Shown here piece after piece: positions 1,719 to 15,519 of a stretch of DNA of 64,000 bases (position 1 is the stretch's first letter; each line of letters starts with the position of its first letter). The stretch comes from an uncultured Lachnospiraceae bacterium. GTDB lineage: Bacteria > Bacillota > Clostridia > Lachnospirales > Lachnospiraceae. The notes beneath the pieces were generated by a model. The model was not told the DNA's origin and did not search any database. It saw only the letters and a list, made by a program, of their open reading frames with translations. Made by a program: the position numbers and the translations under genes. The stretch is taken from assembly GCA_947564735.1 (NCBI GenBank), contig CANOEC010000021.1:1-64000 (forward strand), in the 5' to 3' direction.

Positions 1719-2412
1719 TCATTCCTTAAAATCATTTTCTCCGCCGTATCCCCGATACAGACTGCCTGATCCGAGAAATATCCTTTTTCGTGGAATTTTC
1801 CAAACTACATCCACCATACTTTCAATCCCGTTCCCTCTGATACCGCCCTTTCCGTTCTGGATGATACCATTCCAGATAAATTTTTCTGCCCCTTCCACCC
1901 TGTCCCCAAAGTATCCCAATGAATCTTCTCCCATAGTTCCCAACACTTTCCACTCCTGCAATACGGCACTATAAAAGACAGTCCTTTCCTAATCCCCGGT
2001 CTGCTGGCTGGGGTACATCCTGTCCTCCCCTTCCAGCACAAGCCGGACATACCACAGCCCCTTCTCAAAAAATGCTCTGGAAGATAACGGTTTATACCAT
2101 TCGATATATACAGATTGCAACGCAGCGAAATAAAGTACCCATCTACTGCAACTTTATTTCCAGTTAAATGCTGCAGCATCCAGTTATTTTACAGTTCCCC
2201 GACAAAATTATATACAATCCGGGGTTCTTTTCCTTTTCCACTACGTCCGACAGCTTTAGGAAACGCTTCCCTGTCTGGCCTCCCTCTGCCCTGTCCGAAT
2301 AAAAACCGGGAAAGGTATCGCCTATCTCCTGATTGCGCCCTGCAGGACTCTCATACTCCCTTTTAAGACCTGCCATACGCCCCATTTGATAGGTACACCA
2401 GACAAATGGCAC
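1719..2412 (-). pseudogene. Degraded accessory coding remnants
   Basis: Protein-like segments occur in different minus frames. One (2412-2164) contains GDTFPGFYSDRA and LKLSDVVEKEK. The next reads NLYISNGINRYLPEHF, shifts frame into GLWYVRLVLEGEDRMYPS and meets a stop. A third piece (from 1961) reads MGEDSLGYFGD and FIWNGIIQN. The order and composition suggest one or two genes broken by frameshifts and stops. I do not recognise the parent protein. It lies downstream of the broken radical SAM gene and shares its decayed state, so I infer it belongs to the same eroded integrative-element block. Confidence 0.45.
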
Positions 2413-2558: not shown

Positions 2559-3343
2559 TCACGGTCTGTACTCCTCAAATTTCCTGCATGCCTTGAATAT
2601 TCTCCTGTCGCATACCCATCTCTGGAGATGCCGCAGGACATGACCCTTTGAAAGGAGTGCTTTATTGTAGAGCATCACATATGGGCTGTACCCATGGTCG
2701 CGGAGTGTATAGATCCTGTCCAGATCCTGTTCGATCGTTGTATCATAGCCGCAGAGTACGTACACCGTCATCTTAGAGTAGCCCCATCCGGTCACTTCCC
2801 TGAACTCCTTAAACTTCTGCACGATCGAATCTTTGTCAGAATACCGGTCCCATGCAAAGTGCACCTGCCTGACTTTCATTTCCATCAGCATTTCCGTCTT
2901 CTTCCTATTCATCAGCCGTATATCAAGTCCCTGGGAAAAATCAATCCACGCCCTGCTTTCCACAAGCTGGATAAACAGCTCCTCCCAGTCCGGGCATGCA
3001 GTGATATTCGGGTCGAGCAGTACCACATGTATGCTGTTTCCCGTACTTCCGGAATCCTGTTTTCATATAAGGAATAATCCGGATAAATTGTCTCTATCCC
3101 ATCCGGCAGGGGCATGTCGCGCCTGCCGTCATACACTTCTTTCCCGCCCGGCAGTTTTATGCTGTAACCGCTGCCGCCTTTGATGACCTGTCCGGCATTG
3201 ATCCCATACGGGTAATCCGGTGAAAAACTGAATATCTTTGAGACGTATACGATATCCAGCGGGGTACCCGGAAAGCCATGCACGACCGGCATGTACCACT
3301 CCACGCTGTCACCCTTTGCCTTATGCCACGCCGATAATTTCAT
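2559..3343 (-). pseudogene. Radical SAM protein gene, internal deletion removing the FeS motif
   Basis: The N-terminal part (from 3343) opens MKLSAWHKAKGDSVEWY and contains FPGTPLDIVYVSKIFSF, then runs to EVRETAY. The C-terminal part (from about 3026, another frame) begins VLLDPNITACPDWEE and continues through IDFSQGLDIRLM and a natural-looking end at 2559. Both halves match the order expected in a radical SAM family common in conjugative elements of Firmicutes, but the stretch that should carry the Cx3Cx2C cluster between them is absent and the junction at about 3020-3030 changes frame. The product therefore cannot bind the SAM-cleaving cluster. The family assignment rests on recalled sequence resemblance; the broken frame is directly seen. 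Confidence 0.6.
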
Positions 3344-3530
3344 TCATGGTAAATTGGGAAAATGATGCCCGTCTGCATCGATCAGTCCTATCCGCATGAT
3401 TCCTGTACCCCGTATGCATTGCGATATTCTTCCAGTTCTGTTGTAGAGCCGGATATCCCACCACATATTTTATTATTTTTGTTTCTGCATCCAAAGGCAA
3501 ATCCATCTGGAAATAGTAAGCATTCTGCAC
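3321..3530 (-). pseudogene. Remnant of small sigma-like gene, copy 1
   Basis: The minus strand reads LPLDAETKIIKYVVGYPALQ followed by QNWKNIAMHTGYRNHADRTD, then loses similarity. The same residues, with a stop in the middle, recur at about 11815-11940, where a helix-turn-helix C-terminal half is still present. Here the HTH half is gone. I interpret it as the N-terminal fragment of a small element-borne regulator whose second copy lies at 11590-11960. Confidence 0.5.
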
Positions 3531-3838
3531 ATATATGCCGGCAGGGGCAGTGATACCACCGGCACCGGCTTATCATTAGTACTGACAGGCAGTGTGCATG
3601 CTGCCATGACGGATTCATGTTGTGCACAAATATAGCCTGCCGCTGCCTATGGTATTTTCCGTTATTTCCGCACAGCAATCCTGCGGTGTGCCCATGCGTG
3701 TAAAATGCTAAAGGGCAGGTGTTTTTGACGGGTGGATGACGGGCGGATGCAGGATCTGCATATTGAAATTTATCCATCCAAATATTATACTTTTTCATTA
3801 TATGTATAGTACAAGCTTGAGACAAGGTGATGGGGCAT

Positions 3839-5677
3839 ATGCAAAAGATATTGTTATGGATATGGAATAATATTTCAAATATTGATTCACTGACAGCTCT
3901 AATAAAGTTTTTAGTCAGAATCGCTGTTATTTTCATCGGGATGATTACCGGGTTTGTACGTTTAAAACTGAGATGTAACCGGTATAAATTCCTTAATATA
4001 CCCATAGACCGGGCGACAAGGCAATCCATGAAATATTATATCCCGACAAGAGGACAGCTGACAGATCCCAGTGCGGGGAAGGAATATACAAAAAACGATT
4101 CATTCAATCTGACGGATTTGTTCCTTGAGCATATATTTCCAAAATCCGATGAACAATATTTTATCATCCTGGCAGATTCCGGAATGGGTAAAACAACATT
4201 CCTGCTAAATCTGTTTTTGAAATACTATAAAAAAATACGGTGGAAGTACGACATTGTCCTAATACCGCTTTCTTTTGAAAATGCAATGGAAATGATTAAT
4301 AAAATAGAAAATAAGCCTTCTACCATACTTCTTTTGGACGGGCTGGATGAAGACAGACATGCAATGGACGATTATATCAGACGCCGGAAAGAAATCTGTG
4401 ATGCGACAGAACTTTTCTATAAAGTGGTCATTACCTGCCGCACACAATTTTTCCCTGATGGCAAAAGTGAACCCCGTAAAACGGATAAAATCCGGTATGG
4501 CACTGGTAAAAAGAGCAATGATTTTAAAAAATACTATCTTTCCCCGTTTTGTGAAAAGGAAATTGACAGATATCTGAAGAAAAAATATAAAGGTCTGTCT
4601 GCAGGGCGAAAGATCGAAAAGTCGAAAATGATAATCAATAATTGTCCCGACCTGATGATACGTCCCATGCTGCTTGGATATATTGATGACCTGCTTGAAG
4701 ACAGTACAAAACAGTATAGCACGGCATATGAAATATATAGTGCACTGGTGTCCAAGTGGATCGAACGGGAAGCTGTTGACCATGATATATTATATGAGTT
4801 CTCAAACAAAATAGCCGGACAGATGTATGCTGACAGGACTATATATATCTCCCCGGCGGATATTGAAAAATTATGTAAAAAATACGGGATCAACCTGAAA
4901 CCCATTGAAGCAAGGTCCAAGTCGCTGTTAAACAGGAATGTTAATGGTGATTACAAGTTTGCGCATAAAAGCATATTGGAATTTTTTATTGCAAACCAGA
5001 TATACGAAAACTGGTCACCCGAAAATCCTGTCCCATGGGATGAAGTCAGGCAGCATGAAATGGTAAAACGGTTCTTGAAAGAGAAATGTTTACCATTTTG
5101 GATAAATTTACAGGAAACTCCCCATTTAAATGTCTCCTTTCATCTTTTTGTTTCCTGTGCAATGCATGGGACAGGCTTTTCAAACAGGAGGATATCAGAC
5201 TGTGAATTTATCGACTGCGATTTTTCAGGAAGTGATTTTACGGGCACTGTATTTTCCAGCGTCAGATTTGTTAATGCTGATTTTAGCAGGGCTAATTTAG
5301 CGGGAATCGATTTAAATAACTATGATTTAAGCGGAGCGAGGTTTGAGCACGCATGTCTGAAAAATGCAAAATTAAGAGGCAGTAACTTAAATGGTGCTGA
5401 TTTATCCTATGCGGACTTAACTGGCGCCGATTTAGAAGGCGCCAATTTCGAAAGCGTCAATTTGAAATACACAGATTTTAGTAATGCCAATTTAAAAGGA
5501 ATCCGTCTAAAAAATTCAGATTTAAACTTTGCTAATTTAGAAGGGACAGGCGTAACATCGTTTTTCTTTTGTATATCACATGGAGCTAGAAAGGTGTGGA
5601 ATATACCCTTCTCTGACGGCGATGGTCTGGTGCTAATGAATGCTACAGATGACAGAAGATATAGACATAAAGAATAA
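3839..5677 (+). CDS. Membrane-anchored NACHT-type NTPase with pentapeptide repeats
   Basis: The protein has about 612 residues. Numbered from the upstream GTG at 3827, a hydrophobic segment at about 24-46 is a likely membrane anchor, Walker A is ADSGMGKTT (116-124), Walker B is ILLLDGLDED (167-176), a sensor-like TCRTQFFP lies near 203, and FAHKSILEFF (378-387) matches the winged-helix signature of NACHT proteins. Residues about 455-573 are pentapeptide repeats of A(D/N)L(S/K)xA type, forming a probable beta-helix sensor or ligand domain. Three in-frame starts exist (GTG 3827, ATG 3830, ATG 3839); 3839 best fits the AAGGTGATG spacing. Bacterial NACHT proteins are an established group of antiviral NLR-like factors; a role here in defence is inference. 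It points away from the minus-strand pore operon beyond it and shares the island. Confidence 0.82.
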   Translation: MQKILLWIWNNISNIDSLTALIKFLVRIAVIFIGMITGFVRLKLRCNRYKFLNIPIDRATRQSMKYYIPTRGQLTDPSAGKEYTKNDSFNLTDLFLEHIFPKSDEQYFIILADSGMGKTTFLLNLFLKYYKKIRWKYDIVLIPLSFENAMEMINKIENKPSTILLLDGLDEDRHAMDDYIRRRKEICDATELFYKVVITCRTQFFPDGKSEPRKTDKIRYGTGKKSNDFKKYYLSPFCEKEIDRYLKKKYKGLSAGRKIEKSKMIINNCPDLMIRPMLLGYIDDLLEDSTKQYSTAYEIYSALVSKWIEREAVDHDILYEFSNKIAGQMYADRTIYISPADIEKLCKKYGINLKPIEARSKSLLNRNVNGDYKFAHKSILEFFIANQIYENWSPENPVPWDEVRQHEMVKRFLKEKCLPFWINLQETPHLNVSFHLFVSCAMHGTGFSNRRISDCEFIDCDFSGSDFTGTVFSSVRFVNADFSRANLAGIDLNNYDLSGARFEHACLKNAKLRGSNLNGADLSYADLTGADLEGANFESVNLKYTDFSNANLKGIRLKNSDLNFANLEGTGVTSFFFCISHGARKVWNIPFSDGDGLVLMNATDDRRYRHKE

Positions 5678-6439
5678 GGTTATACCCTGCTGGAAGTATT
5701 TGACAAATATCTCCCTGCATCTGTATACCCTGTTTTTCAACGCAGTTGCTGTTGTGAACGTTAATCTTGTACTTGTATCAGAACAGTTGCCATGCGGTTT
5801 GCATTTTTCCTTCCTCCCCTGTGCTTTTCTTCCATCGGATTTTTTCCAGCTCCCCTCGTCTTAAACTTATCCTGCATCTGCCAGAGGATATACGGCTCCG
5901 CAAACACTACATTTACTCTGCCTGCGCAGTTCCCCATTGTATTGGAATAGCCGTGGTAACAGGTAAAACAAGCGGGTGCGTTTGATGGCAGCCGCGCACC
6001 ACCATTGAAAAAAGGATATCCCAACCCATACCGGAAAAGGCAAGCCACCGGAAGGAGCCTTGGCACACGTTATGAAAGAGATTCAGTTATGGGATGGAGT
6101 GAAAATAGTTTACATCCTGAAAATGCAGGAAACAGACAAATTGTTCAAAAAGAAATAATACCAGAAAGCAATATCCATAGGGCATACGTTCCCATACATC
6201 AGCAGAAAGCTCCTGACAGCACAGAAAAATCAGGGCAGAAAAAGATGCGCAGGAAAATTATTATTATCGGAATTATCAGAAGGAATTAGATATTGTCCGT
6301 ACCAATATCTACATCCCATCAAACAGACTCACTCCATACCATTGGGCAACAGCAAGCCCCGGCATCTATGCAAAACAAAAACGGCATGCACAACATAGTT
6401 TATAATATATAGGGAGCATTTTACTCTTTGCACCGTTTC
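5678..6439. other. Intergenic, possible eroded sequence
   Basis: No intact gene is convincing. A plus-strand stretch near 6071-6160 reads MKEIQLWDGVKIVYILKMQE before a stop, and a minus-strand stretch near 5840-5940 contains VVFAEPYILWQMQDKFK. Both look like protein fragments, unrecognised and too short to assign. Confidence 0.4.
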
Positions 6440-6634
6440 CTACTGCTGCTCATACATCTGGATGGTTTGTAATATCTCATCTTTTGTTTCCTTATCAGGA
6501 AAGACCGATGTCATATAATAATTGATTGGCAGCTGTGATAATGGCACTATTTGCGATGAAGTTCTCCCCTTTAAATTACCAAAAAATATAAATTTACCTA
6601 ATTTTCTTAAACTCCTATTTAACTTTCGTAACAT
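6440..6634 (-). CDS. Small basic protein, unrecognised
   Basis: A 64-residue product starting MLRKLNRSLRKLGKF, rich in Lys and Arg at the N-terminus, then a polar tail with YYMTSVFPDKETKDEILQTI. The ATG at 6634 is preceded by AAGGGAG at a good distance; longer in-frame starts up to 6688 lack such a site. It overlaps the end of the upstream two-TM/GAF gene by 20 bases, which indicates translational coupling in the same transcript. I do not recognise a family. The basic, amphipathic N-terminus could bind membrane or nucleic acid, but this is speculation. Confidence 0.5.
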   Translation of the reverse strand: MLRKLNRSLRKLGKFIFFGNLKGRTSSQIVPLSQLPINYYMTSVFPDKETKDEILQTIQMYEQQ

Positions 6635-7670
6635 TTTCATTCTCTCCCTTAACATTTTTTGTGTTTCTTTTCCTAGATGCATATCCATTCTTACATTTCT
6701 GAAGATAAAAATTATATTTATTCATTATTACATAAATCACTGCTGCAAAAGATTTTGCAATCTGAATAAATTGTTCTTCATATTCTGGTATAAATGCATG
6801 CGTTGACTTAGTATCGATACACAAAAAGCCAACTATGTGATAGTCAAAAGAATCACTAGGTTCTGTAAAATGCAGATGGGAATGCGCTATCCTTATAGGG
6901 ACCACTATGGCTGCACGGTAAAAATCCCAATAATTTTCTGATGTATTTTCATATTTTTGCTGATGTTTCCTTAACTTCTCATCAAACAGATGGATATCCT
7001 GTTCATAAAAGTATTGCTTATTATAAAAGTCAGGCGGTGATATAATGTATGAAAAATCTGTATTTTTGCTAATCAAAACTGCCTGATTATGGGATGCATC
7101 TTCTCTCTGCTTTGAAATATTTTTAGACCTGACAAACGTATAAACCGTGGCATTTTCTTTGTCTATTCTATCAAAATTTATATTTTCATTATCCTTGCCA
7201 ATAAGCTTAATACAGGCATTCATATCTTTTCCTGTATATGCTTTATATATATTGCATAATTTGTCTAGCATATCAATTAAATATTCACGGGTAATCCTTG
7301 TTAAAAATTCCTTATTTAAATCTTTATCTTTATGATATTTCAATATATCAAAATAGAAATTCCTAAAATCATGCAAAATACTATAGTAACTGGCCGCATC
7401 ACTTCCGAGTCTAGTCCACAGACTCGATTTATATTGTTTCATTTTTGCCCTCATAAACATCATAATTATTATTAAAAGTATGCATATTAACCACGGCAAA
7501 TCAATTGGAATTTGTGGAACTATTTGGGATACAACTCTAATTAGTAATTGTGCACCGCCATACACAATACCGATCAGCGACACCAATGATGTTATAAATG
7601 CCAAAACCTCTTGTAACCAATTAGGAACTTTTTCCCAAAACGTCCTTAAATGTAAATAAATCTTTTTCAT
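6615..7670 (-). CDS. Two-TM membrane protein with GAF-like sensory domain
   Basis: About 351 residues from the ATG at 7670. Two hydrophobic segments at about 22-46 and 58-74 form an N-terminal membrane hairpin. A helical linker follows, then residues about 145-320 have the GAF fold pattern, with AAIVVPIRI, HIVGFLCIDTKSTHAF and a final helix FIQIAKSFAAVIYVIMNKY. GAF domains bind small molecules, often cyclic nucleotides or haem; no ligand residues can be assigned here. An earlier in-frame start at 7709 exists but has no clear ribosome site. It lies about 290 bases downstream of the 147-residue TM gene on the same strand and is followed by an overlapping small gene. Membrane location is predicted directly from composition; function is unknown. 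Confidence 0.7.
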   Translation of the reverse strand: MKKIYLHLRTFWEKVPNWLQEVLAFITSLVSLIGIVYGGAQLLIRVVSQIVPQIPIDLPWLICILLIIIMMFMRAKMKQYKSSLWTRLGSDAASYYSILHDFRNFYFDILKYHKDKDLNKEFLTRITREYLIDMLDKLCNIYKAYTGKDMNACIKLIGKDNENINFDRIDKENATVYTFVRSKNISKQREDASHNQAVLISKNTDFSYIISPPDFYNKQYFYEQDIHLFDEKLRKHQQKYENTSENYWDFYRAAIVVPIRIAHSHLHFTEPSDSFDYHIVGFLCIDTKSTHAFIPEYEEQFIQIAKSFAAVIYVIMNKYNFYLQKCKNGYASRKRNTKNVKGENENVTKVK

Positions 7671-7962
7671 TTGTATCACCAGTTTAATCATCCATCCCGA
7701 TGCAATCACCCAAGCCTTTTGTCCATGCCCTAAGTTTCCCGCTCTCTGCGCCTGCCTATTAGCCTTACTCAGCCAGACAAACGGCAGGGTTTGGATGCAT
7801 CACTGTTTCTCTTTCTACATATGTTCAAATTTTATGGACTATTATAACACATTATAAAAAATGATGAAGCAAAAATTTTATTCAAGCAAAAATCTCCATA
7901 CATATAGCCCTTATGTTCATCCTCCATGTCACAAGGGCTGTAAATATAGCAAACATACGGAT

Positions 7963-8406
7963 TTACTTTTTCGGTTCTTTTTCATACTTTTCTTCAAAAT
8001 ACCTGCACCACGCATTTATGCCCATTTTAACTATACCCAGCACGATTAAATTTGTGATGCCTGTTACAATGAACACATCCATGTTATACATATTAGCCAT
8101 GTCTGTTGCAATAGTACTAATAAGCGATGATGTTAATATCTCCGCTTTCCCTCTGTTTTTTTCTGAAGATAGAAATTGATATAATTCATTCCCCAAAAAA
8201 TATGTGATTTTTATATCACTCTTTGAGGAAGCAAATGAATTTCCCTGACGCAGTACATCAATGGCAAAATAATCCACTATCTCCATATATGCGTCTTCCG
8301 AAAATGTTTCATTTCTTACCACTTGGCGCCATTCATTAAGTTTAAATACGTTCACATTATATTTTTCTAAAAATATTGCGCATTCTGCCATTAATTCCTT
8401 TTCCAT
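7963..8406 (-). CDS. Small protein with one C-terminal TM segment
   Basis: A 147-residue protein, mostly polar and helical up to about 105, then a hydrophobic span at about 111-129 (VFIVTGITNLIVLGIVKMG) and a charged tail EEKYEKEPKK. This is the arrangement of a tail-anchored or single-pass protein with a cytoplasmic N-terminal domain. It begins 10 bases after the stop of the HExxH gene, so the two are surely co-transcribed. The tight spacing suggests an accessory or inhibitor partner for the upstream metallopeptidase-like or pore-like proteins; that is inference. No known family recognised. Confidence 0.7.
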   Translation of the reverse strand: MEKELMAECAIFLEKYNVNVFKLNEWRQVVRNETFSEDAYMEIVDYFAIDVLRQGNSFASSKSDIKITYFLGNELYQFLSSEKNRGKAEILTSSLISTIATDMANMYNMDVFIVTGITNLIVLGIVKMGINAWCRYFEEKYEKEPKK

Positions 8407-8416
8407 TTCAATTCTC

Positions 8417-9868
8417 CTAATATGTCATGATATTATCCAAGAACTCCTGCTTCGATCCCATGCCGCATTTTACCTGTGAAGCATATAATACGATATTATA
8501 AAATATTTTCCAATCATCAATATTTCTACAAAAAATGCCATCTATACAGTCCGTATCCTCAAATTCCACCATTTTATAGAAGCCTGCCTCGATGTCTTCC
8601 CGCACATAATCCAAATTGATCATGCTTTGACATGTAAAAAACACGTCATCATCCTTCCCCATGACAAAAACAAAAAAAGCTCCATGATTCAATCTATAGA
8701 GAAAAATATGTTTAGAGCTTGTACAATATGGTTCAATATAGCTTTTAAATTCAGAATACCTGTTTTTTAACTGATAAAATAATCTCCGTCTGAATACCTT
8801 TTTCCAATATCCCTTTACACTATTTATATCGTCAAAATAGAAAACCATTCCGCATTTATCTGACCATTGACCATTTGATACATCTTTTCTATTAGAAACC
8901 ATACTATACATCTTGCCCTGCAGGGTATCCGTTAACTCCAATAAAGTATCCTCTCCATAATCATATATCGTTGCCACGGAAATATTCTTCTGCTCAATAA
9001 GTTCTATGTCACTTTCCAACGCTTCAAATACATATTTCTGAGTAAGGCAGTCTGGCAAAATTGCTTCATGAAACTGTCGCTCAAAATTATCTTTCCTTTT
9101 TAAATTATAGCCCAGTTGAATTCCATTCTTCAATAAATTTTCGACATTTCTTTCAAGCAATCCGGTTGAAAAGCTGTTTTGCCTAAACTGTTCCATCAAA
9201 TTTTCCAGAAATGAAACTACATTATCAGTTGACCATTCGTCCTGCATGATATTACCGTGTGCAATAATATCTTCATCCGAAATATCCACATCTTTACCGG
9301 AAAGCATCAATCCTTTTAAAGCCTGTAATATCTTTTCTAACCTGAAATCAGGATAGCATCCTTTCCCCTCTGAAAGAAAAAAATGTAACAAGTTTTCGGC
9401 TGAACTCCAGCAAGATGCTTCTGTATATTTCGTTATGTCAATGTTCATTGCTAACGTAAATATTCTGTCAATTAAATTACTTTTCTCTGCAATATCCATA
9501 TTTAAACTCATCAGAAAATCCAGTTCCTGAAACTGGTACTGCAGGTAATATTGCTGCTCCCTGAATTTACCATAAAACCCATCATATAAATCCGGTCTCT
9601 GTGACTCTGCGAAAATAAGTTCACTGCACATTGCATAGCACTCATTTGTACGTTCAGAGGCATCATGCAATACCTTGCCTATTTCGTACAGCTTTCCCAT
9701 ACCCGGTTCTTCGCTGATCTGTTTTACCAGAAAACTCAGTATTCCAAACAGAGTATTTTTTGCCAGCCCCCAATGTGCCATTTCATGGACATATACGTTT
9801 ATCTCCCCATATGCATTATTACAGTCAATTTTTACAATATCATCAAAATCATATGTACCCTGCAGCAT
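8417..9868 (-). CDS. Putative zinc metallopeptidase (HExxH) of unknown family
   Basis: A 483-residue protein without signal peptide or clear TM. Residues 28-32 are HEMAH within NVYVHEMAHWGLAKNT, a fit to the HExxH zinc-binding helix. About 44 residues later ERTNECYAMCSELIFAE offers acidic residues (E76, E83) for the third gluzincin ligand. The rest, about 400 residues, is a unique helical then mixed domain with no recognised motif. It starts 21 bases after the stop of the pore-like gene and ends 10 bases before the small TM gene. The motif near the N-terminus and the operon context make a protease acting on the pore-like protein or another partner plausible, but chance HExxH matches occur and activity is unproven. 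Confidence 0.65.
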   Translation of the reverse strand: MLQGTYDFDDIVKIDCNNAYGEINVYVHEMAHWGLAKNTLFGILSFLVKQISEEPGMGKLYEIGKVLHDASERTNECYAMCSELIFAESQRPDLYDGFYGKFREQQYYLQYQFQELDFLMSLNMDIAEKSNLIDRIFTLAMNIDITKYTEASCWSSAENLLHFFLSEGKGCYPDFRLEKILQALKGLMLSGKDVDISDEDIIAHGNIMQDEWSTDNVVSFLENLMEQFRQNSFSTGLLERNVENLLKNGIQLGYNLKRKDNFERQFHEAILPDCLTQKYVFEALESDIELIEQKNISVATIYDYGEDTLLELTDTLQGKMYSMVSNRKDVSNGQWSDKCGMVFYFDDINSVKGYWKKVFRRRLFYQLKNRYSEFKSYIEPYCTSSKHIFLYRLNHGAFFVFVMGKDDDVFFTCQSMINLDYVREDIEAGFYKMVEFEDTDCIDGIFCRNIDDWKIFYNIVLYASQVKCGMGSKQEFLDNIMTY

Positions 9869-9889
9869 TTTTTCTCCAATCTGTCTCCA

Positions 9890-11464
9890 TTATTTGATCA
9901 CTTTCCTTGTATAGGAAACAACAAAAACAGAAAACATGGACAATCCAATAATTTTTTCCGCAACCATAAAGTAATACGCACTTAGGATTCTGGGCATCAG
10001 CTCCCCACTCTCTATCTGAAGGAACACCTGAAGGCTGTATATCCATGCCGTCTTCCATTCATCCATTGTCTGGTATAAGGTTCCTTCTATCTGGAAGTTT
10101 GTGGTATTTATCCCGATGCAGCAAGAATATATCCATGCAAACCCTATAACGATCCCCAATATCCAGAACAGGAATTTTGACGGCTTCGTTGCATAATTAC
10201 CGCACAATATATCAAGAAACAATTTCTCAAACACCCATGCCACAGAGGCGCCCAGCAGTCTTATTGTGATTGTGGTATATGCCCATGATTTTTTCAGCAT
10301 GGAATTACTGTATTCCGTACTCCTCCCAACTGCGGCATAATCGGTCCAGACATCGTGTACCCTGCCCATGCTCCGGTACCGCTTACTGAGTACATACGCC
10401 GCATCCGCATTATCCGATTCCCCCTCGCTCTGGTAATTCTCCGACAGGATTATCAACTGGTTTGCCTTGTCAGTAGCGGAAGTCCGGCATAAGACAATTT
10501 CATCCTGTTCCGGGTCGTATACATATTGCAGCTGTTTATGGAAGAGATGCTTTGAGAATTTATTCTGGATCGTCAGCCTTCCCAATAAAGTAGACTTTTT
10601 CAAGCAATAGCAGGTATAGTTTTTATATCCCTGATTGCCTAACAGGACACAGTCGCGGATAACACTTTCCTGTATTACTATATGCTCTGCACGGGAAATC
10701 CTAAAATCAAGCAGTCCATTGACGTTTGCCTTATACATCAGGATCATTCTGACAACTGAATCGACAAAGTCAACCTTCATTGGCGGCGTCTCCACTTCCC
10801 AAAAGCTGAATTGTGCTTCAGGGCAGTCCATATATGCAAAACTCAGGGGCTGCGTGCCAAAATTACACTCATAAAACTCAACACTTCCGTCTATGCCTTT
10901 CATATAGTCAAAGCTTATCCCGCCTTCCTCCCCAAAATCCGTCCCCGAAAAAACCACCTCGCACTTGCCACCGCCAAATACTGTCCTGTCAAAATAAATC
11001 CCCTTGTCCCCGAACACCGTGCATCCAAAATATACATTGCAGTTAATGAACTGACAGCCTTTCATGGAAAAATCTGCATTTCCCATATCACTGTATGAAA
11101 AATCCACTTTCCCATAATAAAAGATATTATCATCCAGCATAATGCCAGACACGGTATCAGCAGCAATCATCTTACACCATGAAAAATCTGCCGCTATACC
11201 ATTTTTCCCACAAAATATACTGTCAGTAATATAATCAACCTTGATCTCGATGATTTCCTCTTTACCATAGCCATAACTGCTGCGGTATTCCGTCATGGAA
11301 AAACCTTCCACACATACTTGGTCCAGCGCCAGCGGAACACCCTTATGTATCGACTCATACAGTCCTTCCACATTAATGATTTCGTATTTTACCGGATTTA
11401 CCCCTGATATTTCAGGACATATATAAGTTGCACTGCCTTTTTTCTCTAAAGTTGCATGGAGCAT
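9890..11464 (-). CDS. Beta-helix protein with C-terminal two-TM ion-channel-like pore
   Basis: A 524-residue protein. Residues about 80-275 carry degenerate pentapeptide-like repeats (DFSYSDMGNADFSMKGC, VVFSGTDFGEEGGISFDY) that should form a right-handed beta-helix. A linker with a TPR-like helical pair follows (about 335-380). The C-terminus has a hydrophobic segment at 430-450 (FLFWILGIVIGFAWIYSCCI), a re-entrant pore-helix-like stretch at 474-491 (WIYSLQVFLQIESGELMP) and a last TM at about 495-517. This TM-pore-TM order is that of two-TM potassium-channel modules, but the filter position reads ESGEL rather than GYGD. It heads an operon with the HExxH and small TM genes. I infer a gated pore or membrane-disrupting effector; selectivity is unknown. 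Confidence 0.7.
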   Translation of the reverse strand: MLHATLEKKGSATYICPEISGVNPVKYEIINVEGLYESIHKGVPLALDQVCVEGFSMTEYRSSYGYGKEEIIEIKVDYITDSIFCGKNGIAADFSWCKMIAADTVSGIMLDDNIFYYGKVDFSYSDMGNADFSMKGCQFINCNVYFGCTVFGDKGIYFDRTVFGGGKCEVVFSGTDFGEEGGISFDYMKGIDGSVEFYECNFGTQPLSFAYMDCPEAQFSFWEVETPPMKVDFVDSVVRMILMYKANVNGLLDFRISRAEHIVIQESVIRDCVLLGNQGYKNYTCYCLKKSTLLGRLTIQNKFSKHLFHKQLQYVYDPEQDEIVLCRTSATDKANQLIILSENYQSEGESDNADAAYVLSKRYRSMGRVHDVWTDYAAVGRSTEYSNSMLKKSWAYTTITIRLLGASVAWVFEKLFLDILCGNYATKPSKFLFWILGIVIGFAWIYSCCIGINTTNFQIEGTLYQTMDEWKTAWIYSLQVFLQIESGELMPRILSAYYFMVAEKIIGLSMFSVFVVSYTRKVIK

Positions 11465-11589
11465 CCCTTTATTCCCCGCCTCCGCATTTCAAACATGCAT
11501 ATCTTAATTTTCCGATTATATAACTATGATTTTAGCTTGTTCCTTATCATATTATATACCCGCCTTTTCTATTTTTCAAACAAAGCTCT

Positions 11590-11960
11590 TCAGTCCAGCA
11601 TCATATTATGCAAAACCTTTCTTATCACCTTACGGCTGGTCTGGATTGCTTTCCTGTTACAGCCCAAAATACCTGCCGCTTTCTTTACCGTGATTTCCCC
11701 CAAATATAAAAGCCATACCAGCCCTGCAGCCTGTCCCGGCAGGTTCTGGATGGCATTATTTAACCTGAAACGGTATTCATTCCCTAAGACCACTTCCCCT
11801 GCCGTCTGCACCAGTCAGTCCTCTCCGTATGATGCCGGTACGCAATATGTATTACGATATCCTTCCTGTTCTGCCGCACAGCCGGATATCACGCCACACA
11901 GTTAATTATTTTTGCCCCTGCTTCCAAAGGCAAAATTATCCGGGTACGATCAGAGAAAAA
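11590..11960 (-). pseudogene. Broken sigma-region-4-like gene, copy 2
   Basis: The 5' part reads LPLEAGAKIINCVA, an in-frame TGA, then YPAVRQNRKDIVIHIAYRHH, and after a frame change at about 11810 continues into an intact-looking 73-codon frame ending at 11590. That part contains LPGQAAGLVWLLYLGEITVK followed by KAAGILGCNRKAIQTSR, the helix-turn-helix pattern of sigma-70 region 4 or related small regulators of integrative elements. A second, more truncated copy lies at 3321-3530 in the same orientation. The 73-codon 3' frame could still be translated, but has no good start site. Confidence 0.5.
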
Positions 11961-12113
11961 TCTACTTCCATACGGAAGAGCCGGTATAAGATTACAAAAC
12001 TTTAAACGATAAAAAGGGAACTGCAGCCAGCCAGAATATAAGCTGCAAGAAAAGGAAATGATATTGAAAATAAATTCAGGCGGCAGCATCCAGAAAAAAA
12101 CAGTGCCGCAGAT

Positions 12114-12332
12114 TTATAAGATCTGGTCTTTTTCAGAAGGGATATATCTGACAATATCTTTTATGTCACAATCTAAAATCCGGCACAGATCATTCAGTGT
12201 TTTCGTTGACACGTCCTTGTTGTGCTTTAAGCGGTGGAGCGTGCTGTGTGACAGATGATGTTTGTTTGTCAAGGTATACCAGTTTTCATTAGATTTATCC
12301 ATGGTTTCCCAAAATGGCGAATAGTCGATCAC
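12114..12332 (-). CDS. Single-domain XRE/Cro-type regulator, tandem copy A
   Basis: A 72-residue protein consisting of one HTH domain, with HHLSHSTLHRLKHNKDVSTK as the recognition region and LNDLCRILDCDIKDIVRYIP at the end, typical of the compact Cro/C1 type used by plasmids and integrative elements. The start is a GTG, with GAAGG eight bases upstream. Its neighbour at 12536-12754 is a close paralogue on the same strand. It is downstream of copy B and about 150 bases upstream of the broken sigma-like gene. Likely a DNA-binding repressor; target unknown. Confidence 0.78.
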   Translation of the reverse strand: MIDYSPFWETMDKSNENWYTLTNKHHLSHSTLHRLKHNKDVSTKTLNDLCRILDCDIKDIVRYIPSEKDQIL

Positions 12333-12535
12333 ATCCAGCGCCTTCTTTGATTTCCTCTTTAAACATAGGATAAATTATATCCCTGTAATTAAATATATCC
12401 GTAAAAATGAATATGCTTGACCATTTGGGGAGTATGGAAAGTGTAAGCCAAATAGTCTGAAAAAACCTGCCGGCAGACGTAAAACAGGAACCGGGACAAT
12501 AATAAAGCGGCAGCAATCAGGCAAACTGCCGCCTG

Positions 12536-12754
12536 CTATAATTTCTGCTCCCTTTCTGAGGGGATATACCGGACAACATCTTTTATGTCACAGCCTAAAA
12601 TTAGGCACCAGTCATTCAACGTCTTTGTTGATACATCTTTGTTATGCTTTAACCGGTGAAGCATGCTGTCAGATAAATGATGGGTGTACGTCAGCGTGTA
12701 CCAGTTTTCAGTTGATTTTTCCAGAGTATCCCAGAATGGAAGATAGTCGATCAC
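12536..12754 (-). CDS. Single-domain XRE/Cro-type regulator, tandem copy B
   Basis: A 72-residue HTH protein nearly identical in layout to copy A: same length, same opening MIDYxPFW, same LHRLKHNKDVSTKTLNDxC core and same VRYIPSE ending. It also uses a GTG start, with GAAGGGG just upstream. Differences cluster in the N-terminal helix and around the recognition helix (HHLSDSM against HHLSHST), which could alter operator choice. The similar flanks show that gene plus upstream sequence was duplicated. Likely a DNA-binding repressor. Confidence 0.78.
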   Translation of the reverse strand: MIDYLPFWDTLEKSTENWYTLTYTHHLSDSMLHRLKHNKDVSTKTLNDWCLILGCDIKDVVRYIPSEREQKL

Positions 12755-13596: not shown

Positions 13597-14763
13597 ATGG
13601 AAAAAAATCATATCTATATCGCAATTGACTTAAAATCTTTCTATGCCTCCGTGGAAAGTGTCGAGAGGCAGCTTGACCCCATGAATACAAATCTGGTTGT
13701 TGCAGATGCATCCCGGACTGAGAAAACGATATGCCTTGCTTTCTCACCTTCCCTGAAGTCTTTCGGCATATCAGGCCGTGCCAGACTTTTTGAGGTCGTC
13801 CAGAGAGTCAGGGAAGTCAATCTCCAGAGGAGATCCCATGCTCCGGGACATCAGTTCACCGGGGAATCCTGTCTCGCCGATGAATTGGATGAGCATCCTG
13901 AATTTTCCCTCTCCTACATCATCGCGCCGCCGCGAATGGCGCACTATCTGGAATACAGCACAAAGATATATGAGATATACTTAAAGTATGTTGCCCCCGA
14001 AGACATCCATGTGTATTCGATAGACGAGGTCTTCATGGATGCCACTGCATACCTGAAAACCTATTCCCTGACAGCCAGAGAACTGGCACAGAAAATGATT
14101 CTGGATGTATTAAACCAGACCGGGATCACTGCCACTGCCGGGATAGGCACAAACCTGTACCTGTGCAAAGTCGCCATGGACATCGTTGCAAAGCATGTCG
14201 AACCCGCTTCCAACGGAGTCCGGATCGCGGAACTGGATAAGATGAAATACTGGGAGCTTTTATGGGACCATAAGCCGGTCACTGATTTCTGGCGGGTCGG
14301 CAGGGGATATGCCCGGAAATTAGCTGAAAACGGCATGTTCACCATGGGAGATATCGCAAGATGCTCTGTCGGCAGCGGCAGGGGCTATTATAACGAAGAT
14401 CTGCTCTACAGGCTATTCGGCGTCAATGCAGAACTGCTGATAGACCACGCATGGGGATGGGAACCCACAACAATAGACCTCATCAAGCAGTATAAGCCCG
14501 AAACCAACTGCCTCAGTTCAGGACAGGTCCTCCAGTGCCCCTATGATTTCAATAAGGCAAAACTGATCGTAAAAGAAATGACCGACCTTCTTGTACTGAA
14601 CTTAGTTGAAAAAAGGCTGGTAACAGACCAGATAGTGCTCACCATCGGATATGACATCGAAAACCTTTCCAACCCTGAAATCAGCAGGATGTACAGGGGC
14701 GAGGTGACAGTGGATCATTACGGGCGGAGGGTTCCAAAACACGCCATGGCACCGCCAATATAG
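13597..14763 (+). CDS. Y-family DNA polymerase (DinB/UmuC type), C-terminally truncated
   Basis: The 388-residue frame has the Y-family catalytic palm: AIDLKSFYASVE with Asp11, and YSIDEVFMD with Asp143 and Glu144, followed by helix-hairpin-helix-like and little-finger sequence. Relatives in mobile elements are clearly longer. Here the frame breaks at about 14745, where one base appears missing; the next frame continues HGTANIG and LIMDAAMELYDRIVDKNLLV. The product therefore loses the end of the little-finger domain and the C-terminal tail. The palm is complete, so some activity cannot be excluded. These polymerases do error-prone translesion synthesis and are paired with YolD-like proteins, as here. 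GGAGG precedes the ATG. Confidence 0.8.
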   Translation: MEKNHIYIAIDLKSFYASVESVERQLDPMNTNLVVADASRTEKTICLAFSPSLKSFGISGRARLFEVVQRVREVNLQRRSHAPGHQFTGESCLADELDEHPEFSLSYIIAPPRMAHYLEYSTKIYEIYLKYVAPEDIHVYSIDEVFMDATAYLKTYSLTARELAQKMILDVLNQTGITATAGIGTNLYLCKVAMDIVAKHVEPASNGVRIAELDKMKYWELLWDHKPVTDFWRVGRGYARKLAENGMFTMGDIARCSVGSGRGYYNEDLLYRLFGVNAELLIDHAWGWEPTTIDLIKQYKPETNCLSSGQVLQCPYDFNKAKLIVKEMTDLLVLNLVEKRLVTDQIVLTIGYDIENLSNPEISRMYRGEVTVDHYGRRVPKHAMAPPI

Positions 14764-15034
14764 GAAGGAATACTTCCTCCACAAGACTCATCATGGATGC
14801 AGCCATGGAACTGTATGACCGGATTGTGGACAAAAATCTTCTGGTCCGCCGGATCAATGTCACAGCCAACCACTTGATAGATGAGGCGGCAGCAAAAGAG
14901 AGCGGGCAATCTAGGAAGCCATCCTGTCCGTGAAAAAGAAATATGGAAAGAATGCACTCCTGAAAGGGATGAATCTTGAAGAAGGAGCCACGACTCCTGA
15001 AAGGAACAACCAGATAGGAGGGCATAAGGCATAA
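14764..15034 (+). pseudogene. Out-of-frame 3' end of the Y-family polymerase gene
   Basis: The continuation is readable in two further frames: first LIMDAAMELYDRIVDKNLLV and RRINVTANHLIDEAAA, then, after an apparent deletion near 14890-14915, ILSVKKKYGKNALLKGMNLE and ERNNQIGGHKA with a stop whose last base is the A of the YolD-like start codon. This TAATG coupling is preserved although the upstream frame is lost. Confidence 0.6.
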
Positions 15035-15519
15035 TGGGAAACTATGACGATATCATCAACCTGCCACACCATGAATCCGCCACACATCCAAGGATGCCGG
15101 CTTTAGACAGGGCTGCCCAGTTCTCGCCCTTTGCCGCACTGACCGGGCATGGAGCCGCGATCAATGAAACTGCCAGACTGACAGCGGCAAGAATGGAACT
15201 GGATGAGGACAGAAAACAGGAGCTGGATGAATGCCTGCAGATGATACGGGGACACATTTCGCTGAAGCCGGAGGTTGCCATCACGTATTTTGTTGCTGAT
15301 GCCAAAAAAGAAGGCGGGACCTATCTTCAGGCAAGGGGAATCGTGGAGAAACTGGATGATACCGGACATAAGGTAATCATGCGAAACGGAACAGCCATAC
15401 CGTTCAATGATATCTATGAGATTACAGGTTCCATCTTTGAAGGCGCCGAAAAAAAACAGCCGTCCCTATCCGCTGAGCCCCGACATCCTCCATTCATGGG
15501 CATGGTAATTATACCTTAG
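15034..15519 (+). CDS. YolD-like protein
   Basis: A 161-residue cytoplasmic protein opening MGNYDDIINLPHHES, with RAAQFSPFAALTGHGAAINE and a long helical region, features of the YolD-like family that accompanies Y-family polymerases in Firmicute mobile elements. The C-terminal strand-rich part (GHKVIMRNGTAIPFNDIYEI) is also typical. The start overlaps the stop of the polymerase remnant by one base, showing the original translational coupling. The last 20 or so residues after TGSIFEGAE look unlike the family and overlap the opposite-strand gene at 15466-15738, so the 3' end may have been replaced. Exact function of YolD is not settled. Confidence 0.72.
   Translation: MGNYDDIINLPHHESATHPRMPALDRAAQFSPFAALTGHGAAINETARLTAARMELDEDRKQELDECLQMIRGHISLKPEVAITYFVADAKKEGGTYLQARGIVEKLDDTGHKVIMRNGTAIPFNDIYEITGSIFEGAEKKQPSLSAEPRHPPFMGMVIIP

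Follow-up and report, generated by a model that had tools for sequence, protein, structure and literature searches.

We analysed 64,000 nucleotides of DNA (the window) from an uncultured Lachnospiraceae bacterium, in which three open reading frames (ORFs) on the minus strand, P1, P2 and P3, follow each other with spacers of 21 and 10 bases in the ORF list. A preliminary description had proposed that these genes form one unit, and had extended it by two downstream ORFs to a five-protein system. The three ORFs and their spacers are as claimed, and two genomes share the trio as a single conserved block. The finding survives in reduced form, with three genes instead of five, as a variant of a catalogued kind of defence candidate. 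The features of the unit are:

9890..11464, minus strand: P1, 524 amino acids; pentapeptide-like repeat region at about residues 90-300 (extent judged by eye), then a C-terminal channel-like membrane region at about residues 399-523.
8417..9868, minus strand: P2, 483 amino acids; soluble, with HEMAH at residues 28-32; putative zinc metalloprotease.
7963..8406, minus strand: P3, 147 amino acids; a divergent PDC-M35B relative with a K-x3-NAWC motif and a single strong membrane segment at the C-terminal end.
11551..11579, minus strand: putative operon promoter, TTGAAA-17-TATAAT, matching 11 of 12 consensus positions.

Among 84,980 genomes of bacteria and archaea, scanned for close relatives only, a single relative of P2 came to light, in locus L006, with 74% identity over the full length. 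L006 carries P1 (79%), P2 (74%) and P3 (75%) in the same order as the window; the sole P2 relative found is accompanied by both other genes, in this one case. When the whole window was compared with 17,449 bases of the 36,423-base L006 contig, positions 11476-7961 of the window and 6377-9910 of L006 formed one long DNA match (75.7% identity over 3546 aligned columns). Besides the three genes, the conserved block takes in 12 bases ahead of P1 and 2 bases past the P3 stop codon; its limits are the gene boundaries. The spacer between P1 and P2, 21 bases in the window, is 1 or 37 bases in L006, depending on the P2 start chosen. The ratios of nonsynonymous to synonymous substitution rates (dN/dS) between the copies are 0.072 for P1, 0.055 for P2 and 0.105 for P3, and are rough values, because the pairwise dS is high (1.4-2.8) and near saturation. 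All three genes are clearly under purifying selection and retained as proteins; this, the unit itself and its conservation as one block are direct observations.

The operon probably ends at P3, because the conserved DNA stops there, L006 has a hairpin of 11 base pairs and then a T-rich run directly after P3, and the putative promoters lie upstream of P1. The hairpin was read by eye, as was the L006 promoter, TTGAAC-17-TATAAT. Promoter-like sites are about as frequent as expected (26 found, 25.2 expected), and the promoter in the window is favoured solely by its strength and position. A search of positions 5600-12500 of the window against Rfam gave one match, below threshold.

In L006 the unit is surrounded by ParA, ParB, RepA_N, sigma-like, sortase and DUF3801 genes, and we take this DNA to be an integrative or plasmid-like conjugative element. 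Just upstream of P1, both copies have an ORF resembling sigma-70 region 4; that of L006 encodes 147 amino acids and matches clearly, while that of the window (11590-11811, minus strand) is short and below the cut-off. Two further short DNA matches between the window and L006 (177 and 60 bases) lie at window positions 1825-2115, in sigma-like genes of L006. Judged by this resemblance, the two window stretches suggest a decayed element here.

The unit is rare. P2 was found in one of 150 genomes of the family and one of 391 of the class, its own genome each time (the two draws may overlap), and a P2 profile matched two of 299 genomes of the phylum: its own and one (G625) with a 55-residue match to P2 residues 360-414 (E-value 0.001), judged to be due to chance by its short span. 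A P1 profile matched only its own genome among 99 relatives (61 of the genus, its own included); the absence of P1 from the other 98, 60 of them of the same genus, fits an accessory unit. Searches of mobile DNA gave little. With tblastn, no P2 relative was found in plasmids, phages or viral contigs. P1 had no relative in viral contigs or phages, and in plasmids two pentapeptide-type matches; its C-terminus had none there. P3 had no relative in plasmids or phages; its alignment gave 212 pattern-matching stretches in viral contigs, none confirmed by tblastn, although motif and profile later revealed two true relatives in viral contigs. A search with the P2 N-terminus at E-values up to 10 listed 140 plasmid records, which were set aside; the three that were read comprised two heat-resistance loci with FtsH-named genes and one zincin-like gene.

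P3 connects the trio to a catalogued candidate system. A hydropathy scan places its strong hydrophobic segment at residues 112-130. The PADLOC model PDLC04594 (PDC-M35B) matches P3 with E-values of 8.4e-7 in the window and 5.8e-4 in L006, over the C-terminal 54-55 residues only; the N-terminal half is unaligned, and PADLOC has no cut-off score for this model here. The family phrog_31150 matches P3 of the window (2.1e-8) and of L006 (3.5e-8) as well as the M35B proteins of two other loci, L008 (1.6e-4) and L009 (4.2e-6); in 154 genomes it yielded nothing trustworthy beyond the window's own genes. A profile comparison of the two P3 proteins with two M35B proteins gave a probability of 90 and an E-value of 1.4e-6. 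A model of two M35B proteins scored the P3 copies at 19.9 and 20.1 bits, against at most 11.5 in 10000 shuffles, and a model of four gave them 21.1 and 17.9 bits, while no score among 20000 shuffles exceeded 12.0. The P3-type proteins have in common the membrane segment and an invariant K...NAWC end. These comparisons make P3 a divergent relative of a phage-defence candidate catalogued in PADLOC, PDC-M35B.

PDC-M35B itself is uncommon. A strong match was found in one of the 298 other genomes of the phylum draw (G763), which was also the only one among five genomes of that family, and in one of 72,556 plasmid records, the Priestia megaterium plasmid pN447-3.3. In a class draw of 291 genomes, PDLC04594 gave only the window's own protein and a match in G193, which was rejected as it contains four in-frame stops (E-value 3.7e-5). 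M35B gave nothing in phages, and its alignment nothing in viral contigs. Scans of viral contigs for the NAWC motif yielded 12 and 16 loci, of which two, L032 and L037, contain true relatives by profile; the remaining 26 hold no P3 relative by profile.

The four M35B loci (L008, L009, L032 and L037) were found via the small protein alone, and in all four a gene for a trypsin-like protease lies directly upstream of it, with gaps of -8 (L008), +1 (L009), -4 (L032) and -4 (L037). The catalytic His, Asp and GQSG Ser are aligned in all four upstream proteins, and the two that were scanned match Trypsin_2 and PDC-M35A (1.7e-94 and 2e-77). L008 is not free of bias, since the neighbours of M35A genes were probably the source of the PADLOC M35B models; L009 came from a sequence search with L008, and L032 and L037, both in viral contigs, from the motif. 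In the window and in L006, the place of the trypsin-like protease is taken by the HExxH protein, and PDLC04593 (PDC-M35A) has no match among the proteins of either. The kinship of P3 with M35B and the position of the HExxH protein were likewise observed directly: one kind of membrane partner accompanies two types of (putative) protease, and in the trio a channel-like protein is added.

The PDC-M35A-like proteins of the four loci share a nearly invariant C-terminal tail, QTT(H/Y)AVSAEY, which is perhaps a docking or self-inhibitory segment.

P2 contains exactly one HExxH, at residues 28-32, and no membrane segment in the hydropathy scan. The motif, which the preliminary description had recognised, is conserved in L006 and lies in the best conserved part of the protein: the identity between the copies is 90% in each of the first two 40-residue blocks, and 88% in the next best block. 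Downstream of it, E72, E76 and E83 are conserved and are candidates for the third zinc ligand. By itself an HExxH motif is weak evidence; one occurs in 166 of 20000 shuffled P2 sequences (0.8%). Because the motif is conserved and P2 stands where M35 has its protease, a metalloprotease is the likeliest reading of P2.

In P1, residues 114-223 match phrog_25690 (E-values 6.7e-8 in the window and 5.6e-8 in L006), a family with no function assigned. Apart from the window's own genes, its matches in 154 genomes were not trustworthy; the candidates L022/L026 and L024/L025 were dropped after inspection, and L023 was dropped for its internal stops. Pentapeptide_3 matches P1 below threshold, with E-values of 0.046 in the window and 0.011 in L006. 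Several hydrophobic segments lie within residues 399-523 (hydropathy scan), and residues 438-522 resemble Ion_trans_2, at an equal place and over nearly the whole model in both copies (model positions 5-77 of 79, E-value 0.49, in the window; 6-77, E-value 0.021, in L006). Channels in which Ion_trans_2 is joined to pentapeptide repeats exist as an architecture, and P1 is like them in its domain order and in the sub-threshold matches of both copies; it differs in its scores, which are under the cut-off, and in its filter. Where potassium channels carry the TxGYGD filter, P1 has QIESGE in the window and QIEGGD in L006. These features suggest that P1 may be a channel-like pore without potassium selectivity. 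Of the claim that P1 is pore-like, the several C-terminal hydrophobic segments hold, while the likeness to a channel is weak and below the Pfam cut-off in both copies. Searches of PDB sequences gave nothing of use.

Among the closest known arrangements is PDC-M35. In both it and the trio, a small protein with a C-terminal membrane segment and a K...NAWC end is encoded directly downstream of a (putative) protease gene, and some copies lie on mobile DNA. The trio differs in that its upstream HExxH protein has no trypsin match, in the divergent N-terminal half of the partner, and in the third, channel-like gene. The preliminary description had compared the layout with that of bacterial gasdermin loci, with different domains, and this comparison is supported: the trio is one conserved block, P3 relatives directly follow trypsin-like proteases in four of four loci, the putative protease P2 is encoded beside effector candidates, and neither P1 nor P3 matches a gasdermin family in Pfam, NCBIfam or PADLOC. 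Bacterial gasdermins are activated by cleavage, for which neighbouring proteases can be responsible, and one system needs its trypsin-like protease for defence (PMC9079055). The likeness, a protease and a membrane-permeabilising effector in one locus, is one of plan and not of family, and the trio has the motif of a metalloprotease where gasdermin loci have a caspase-like or trypsin-like protease.

Hailong, which offers a guard-type model for comparison (PMC13275509), likewise consists of an operon with an ion channel-like effector (HalA, with HalB). In contrast, P1 has no HalA match and no HalB-like enzyme was recognised in the trio; at an E-value of 1, P1 does not match the NCBIfam HalA model, and neither P1 nor P2 has a match in NCBIfam. 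Part of the HalA model resembles the pentapeptide part of a neighbouring window protein (3827-5677, see below), not P1. Trypco1 and Trypco2 are domains named for their co-occurrence with trypsin-like peptidases in conflict systems (PMC7159879). They resemble the M35B type in being small uncharacterised partners encoded beside a trypsin-like protease. Both domains are in Pfam, whereas no Pfam family was matched by P3 or by the M35B proteins from L008 and L009. Literature searches on PDC-M35, on PADLOC candidates, on metalloproteases with channels and pentapeptide repeats, on transmembrane effectors and on trypsin-like proteases with membrane partners turned up no description of the trio. The earlier statement that no described system has this set holds for the trio within these searches, but P3 belongs with the catalogued PDC-M35B.

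We propose that the trio is a protease-triggered membrane effector cassette, consisting of a cytoplasmic HExxH metalloprotease, an M35B-type partner and a repeat and channel protein, with a probability of roughly 45%; its role would probably be an abortive type of defence. A protease-controlled effector is favoured because the protease class is exchanged beside the same kind of small partner. At rest, P1 would be closed, and P3 and/or P1 intact. Upon infection or another insult, P2 would be activated, or its inhibition lifted, and would cut P3, the portion of P1 in the cytosol, or both. The membrane parts released in this way, the P1 pore foremost, would then leak ions and halt the cell (abortive infection). 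The proteolytic activity of P2, ion conduction by P1, the choice of substrate and phage as the trigger are inferred.

Several observations weigh against this proposal. P3 resembles M35B mainly in the C-terminal half (which includes the invariant K...NAWC), the catalogue name marks PDC-M35 as a candidate, and the literature searched yielded no paper carrying that name. No family of Pfam, NCBIfam or PADLOC matches P2, and PHROGs adds no match of weight. The pentapeptide models PF13576 and PF00805 score P1 at 14.4 and 12.2 bits (16.3 bits for PF13576 in L006) against cut-offs of 27 and 20.2, and Ion_trans_2 (PF07885) scores it at 10.8 bits in the window and 15.1 bits in L006 against a cut-off of 22.5; P1 is not listed in the Ion_trans_2 search of its own genome at an E-value of 1, and it lacks the TxGYGD filter. 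AlphaFold models from two-row alignments were unusable for both P1 and P2, with predicted local distance difference test (pLDDT) scores of 30 and 36. With two copies of the trio known here, the case for the genes travelling together is one comparison, in which dS is near saturation. The preliminary description had suggested looking for known defence genes nearby; of the neighbouring proteins scanned with PADLOC at the window and L006 copies, none was recognised as a further defence protein. In the four M35B loci there is no relative of P1 or P2 (best profile scores of 7.7 and 7.8 bits, compared with more than 1080 in L006; L037 is truncated 184 bases ahead of its protease gene), so that the M35 plan includes neither P1 nor an HExxH protein.

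This last result also bears on how the trio might work otherwise. Since protease and M35B are adjacent without a P1 relative in four of four M35B loci, and the P3-type proteins share their membrane segment and K...NAWC end, P2 and P3 could be the core device, built on the PDC-M35 plan with another protease, in which P3 is the membrane-active effector and P1 an accessory ion channel or sensor. We consider this unlikely, as both copies begin with P1, at a short distance from P2, and P1 is under similar purifying selection. The same loci argue against a guard model like that of Hailong, in which P2 is a regulator that holds P1 or P3 in check. A channel-like protein does share the operon with two partners, but P3 relatives accompany proteases in four loci without a P1 relative (L037 being truncated 184 bases ahead of its protease gene), P1 has no HalA match, and no nucleotidyltransferase match was found in the operon; we regard the model as improbable.

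It is also conceivable, with low probability, that P2 is not a protease at all but an adaptor or sensor with an HExxH that arose by chance. The lack of a family match, the frequency of the motif in shuffled sequences and the unusable model of P2 agree with this; the location of the motif within the best conserved stretch, and the place of P2 at the protease position of the M35 arrangement, do not. Very unlikely, in our view, is a stress-response operon or one for the maintenance of a mobile element, for example in membrane repair or ion balance, instead of phage defence. One copy does adjoin ParA, ParB, RepA_N and DUF3801 genes, but the family of P3 is a catalogued phage-defence candidate and occurs in viral contigs among phage genes.

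We speculate, with considerable doubt, that NAWC-tailed partners are a common substrate or docking platform for unrelated proteases, that serine and metalloproteases were exchanged beside them, and that the present version gained its own repeat-gated channel, resulting in a three-part, protease-triggered depolarisation system that is unlike gasdermins, the cyclic oligonucleotide-based antiphage signalling system (CBASS) and Hailong in its build. If the exchange is real, the NAWC-tailed protein would be the constant part of a defence plan with a swappable trigger enzyme, in parallel to the bacterial gasdermins, which are paired with different proteases. PDC-M35, catalogued but unexplained, would become directly testable, and the trio, known here in two copies and from sequence alone, is a minimal three-gene set in which a protease may control a channel-like protein.

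The two further ORFs of the proposed five-protein system lie downstream of P3:

6615..7709, minus strand: neighbouring GAF-like protein, 364 amino acids, with N-terminal membrane segments; judged outside the unit.
6440..6688, minus strand: small ORF, 82 amino acids, or 64 from an internal ATG; overlaps the GAF-like ORF; judged outside the unit.

Both were rejected as components, as nothing links them to the operon. Within the compared 17,449 bases of L006, neither the GAF-like gene nor the small ORF has a DNA match, and the gene at 3827-5677 has none either. The GAF domain itself was not confirmed: the 6615-7709 protein has no Pfam match to GAF (PF01590) and is not listed in the GAF search of its own genome. 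Two candidate relatives, L016 and L017, were rejected, having 23% identity over a membrane stretch. With its GTG as start, the GAF-like ORF lies 253 bases past P3, and with an in-frame ATG 292 bases; the ATG is probably the start used in the preliminary description, whose distance of about 290 bases holds for that start and not for the GTG. The overlapping 64-residue partner does overlap, but is the internal-ATG version of the 82-residue ORF, which has no family match in Pfam, NCBIfam, PADLOC or PHROGs.

Other genes were noted around the M35 pairs. On L032, a SIR2-like protein (recognised by eye) is encoded at 2566-3774 on the minus strand, among phage genes and about 2 kb from the pair, and the region is a possible defence hotspot; hotspots in phages and satellites harbour defence genes, SIR2 ones included (PMC9122126). 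About 1.4 kb downstream of the pair in L008, in surroundings rich in transposase-like ORFs (by eye), the gene at 6536-7648 (minus strand) encodes an HExxH protein with a sub-threshold M48 match (0.0013); it was rejected as a relative of P2, to which it does not align. In L009, on the Priestia plasmid, the next gene after the pair (7725-8594, plus strand) encodes a protein of 289 amino acids that matches no Pfam or PADLOC family.

In the window, about 2.3 kb from the operon and on the opposite strand, the gene at 3827-5677 (plus strand) encodes 616 amino acids with an N-terminal membrane segment, a STAND-type nucleoside triphosphatase (NTPase) domain (nSTAND3, 1.1e-5, just below the cut-off) and, in addition, strong pentapeptide repeats. 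This protein may be an immune-type NTPase in its own right. On the other side of the operon, two adjacent and very similar ORFs of 72 amino acids (12114-12332 and 12536-12754, minus strand), small helix-turn-helix regulators by eye, are an apparent tandem duplication. Further on, a Y-family polymerase (13597-14763, plus strand; IMS, 1.5e-25) is followed by a weakly YolD-like protein (15034-15519, plus strand).

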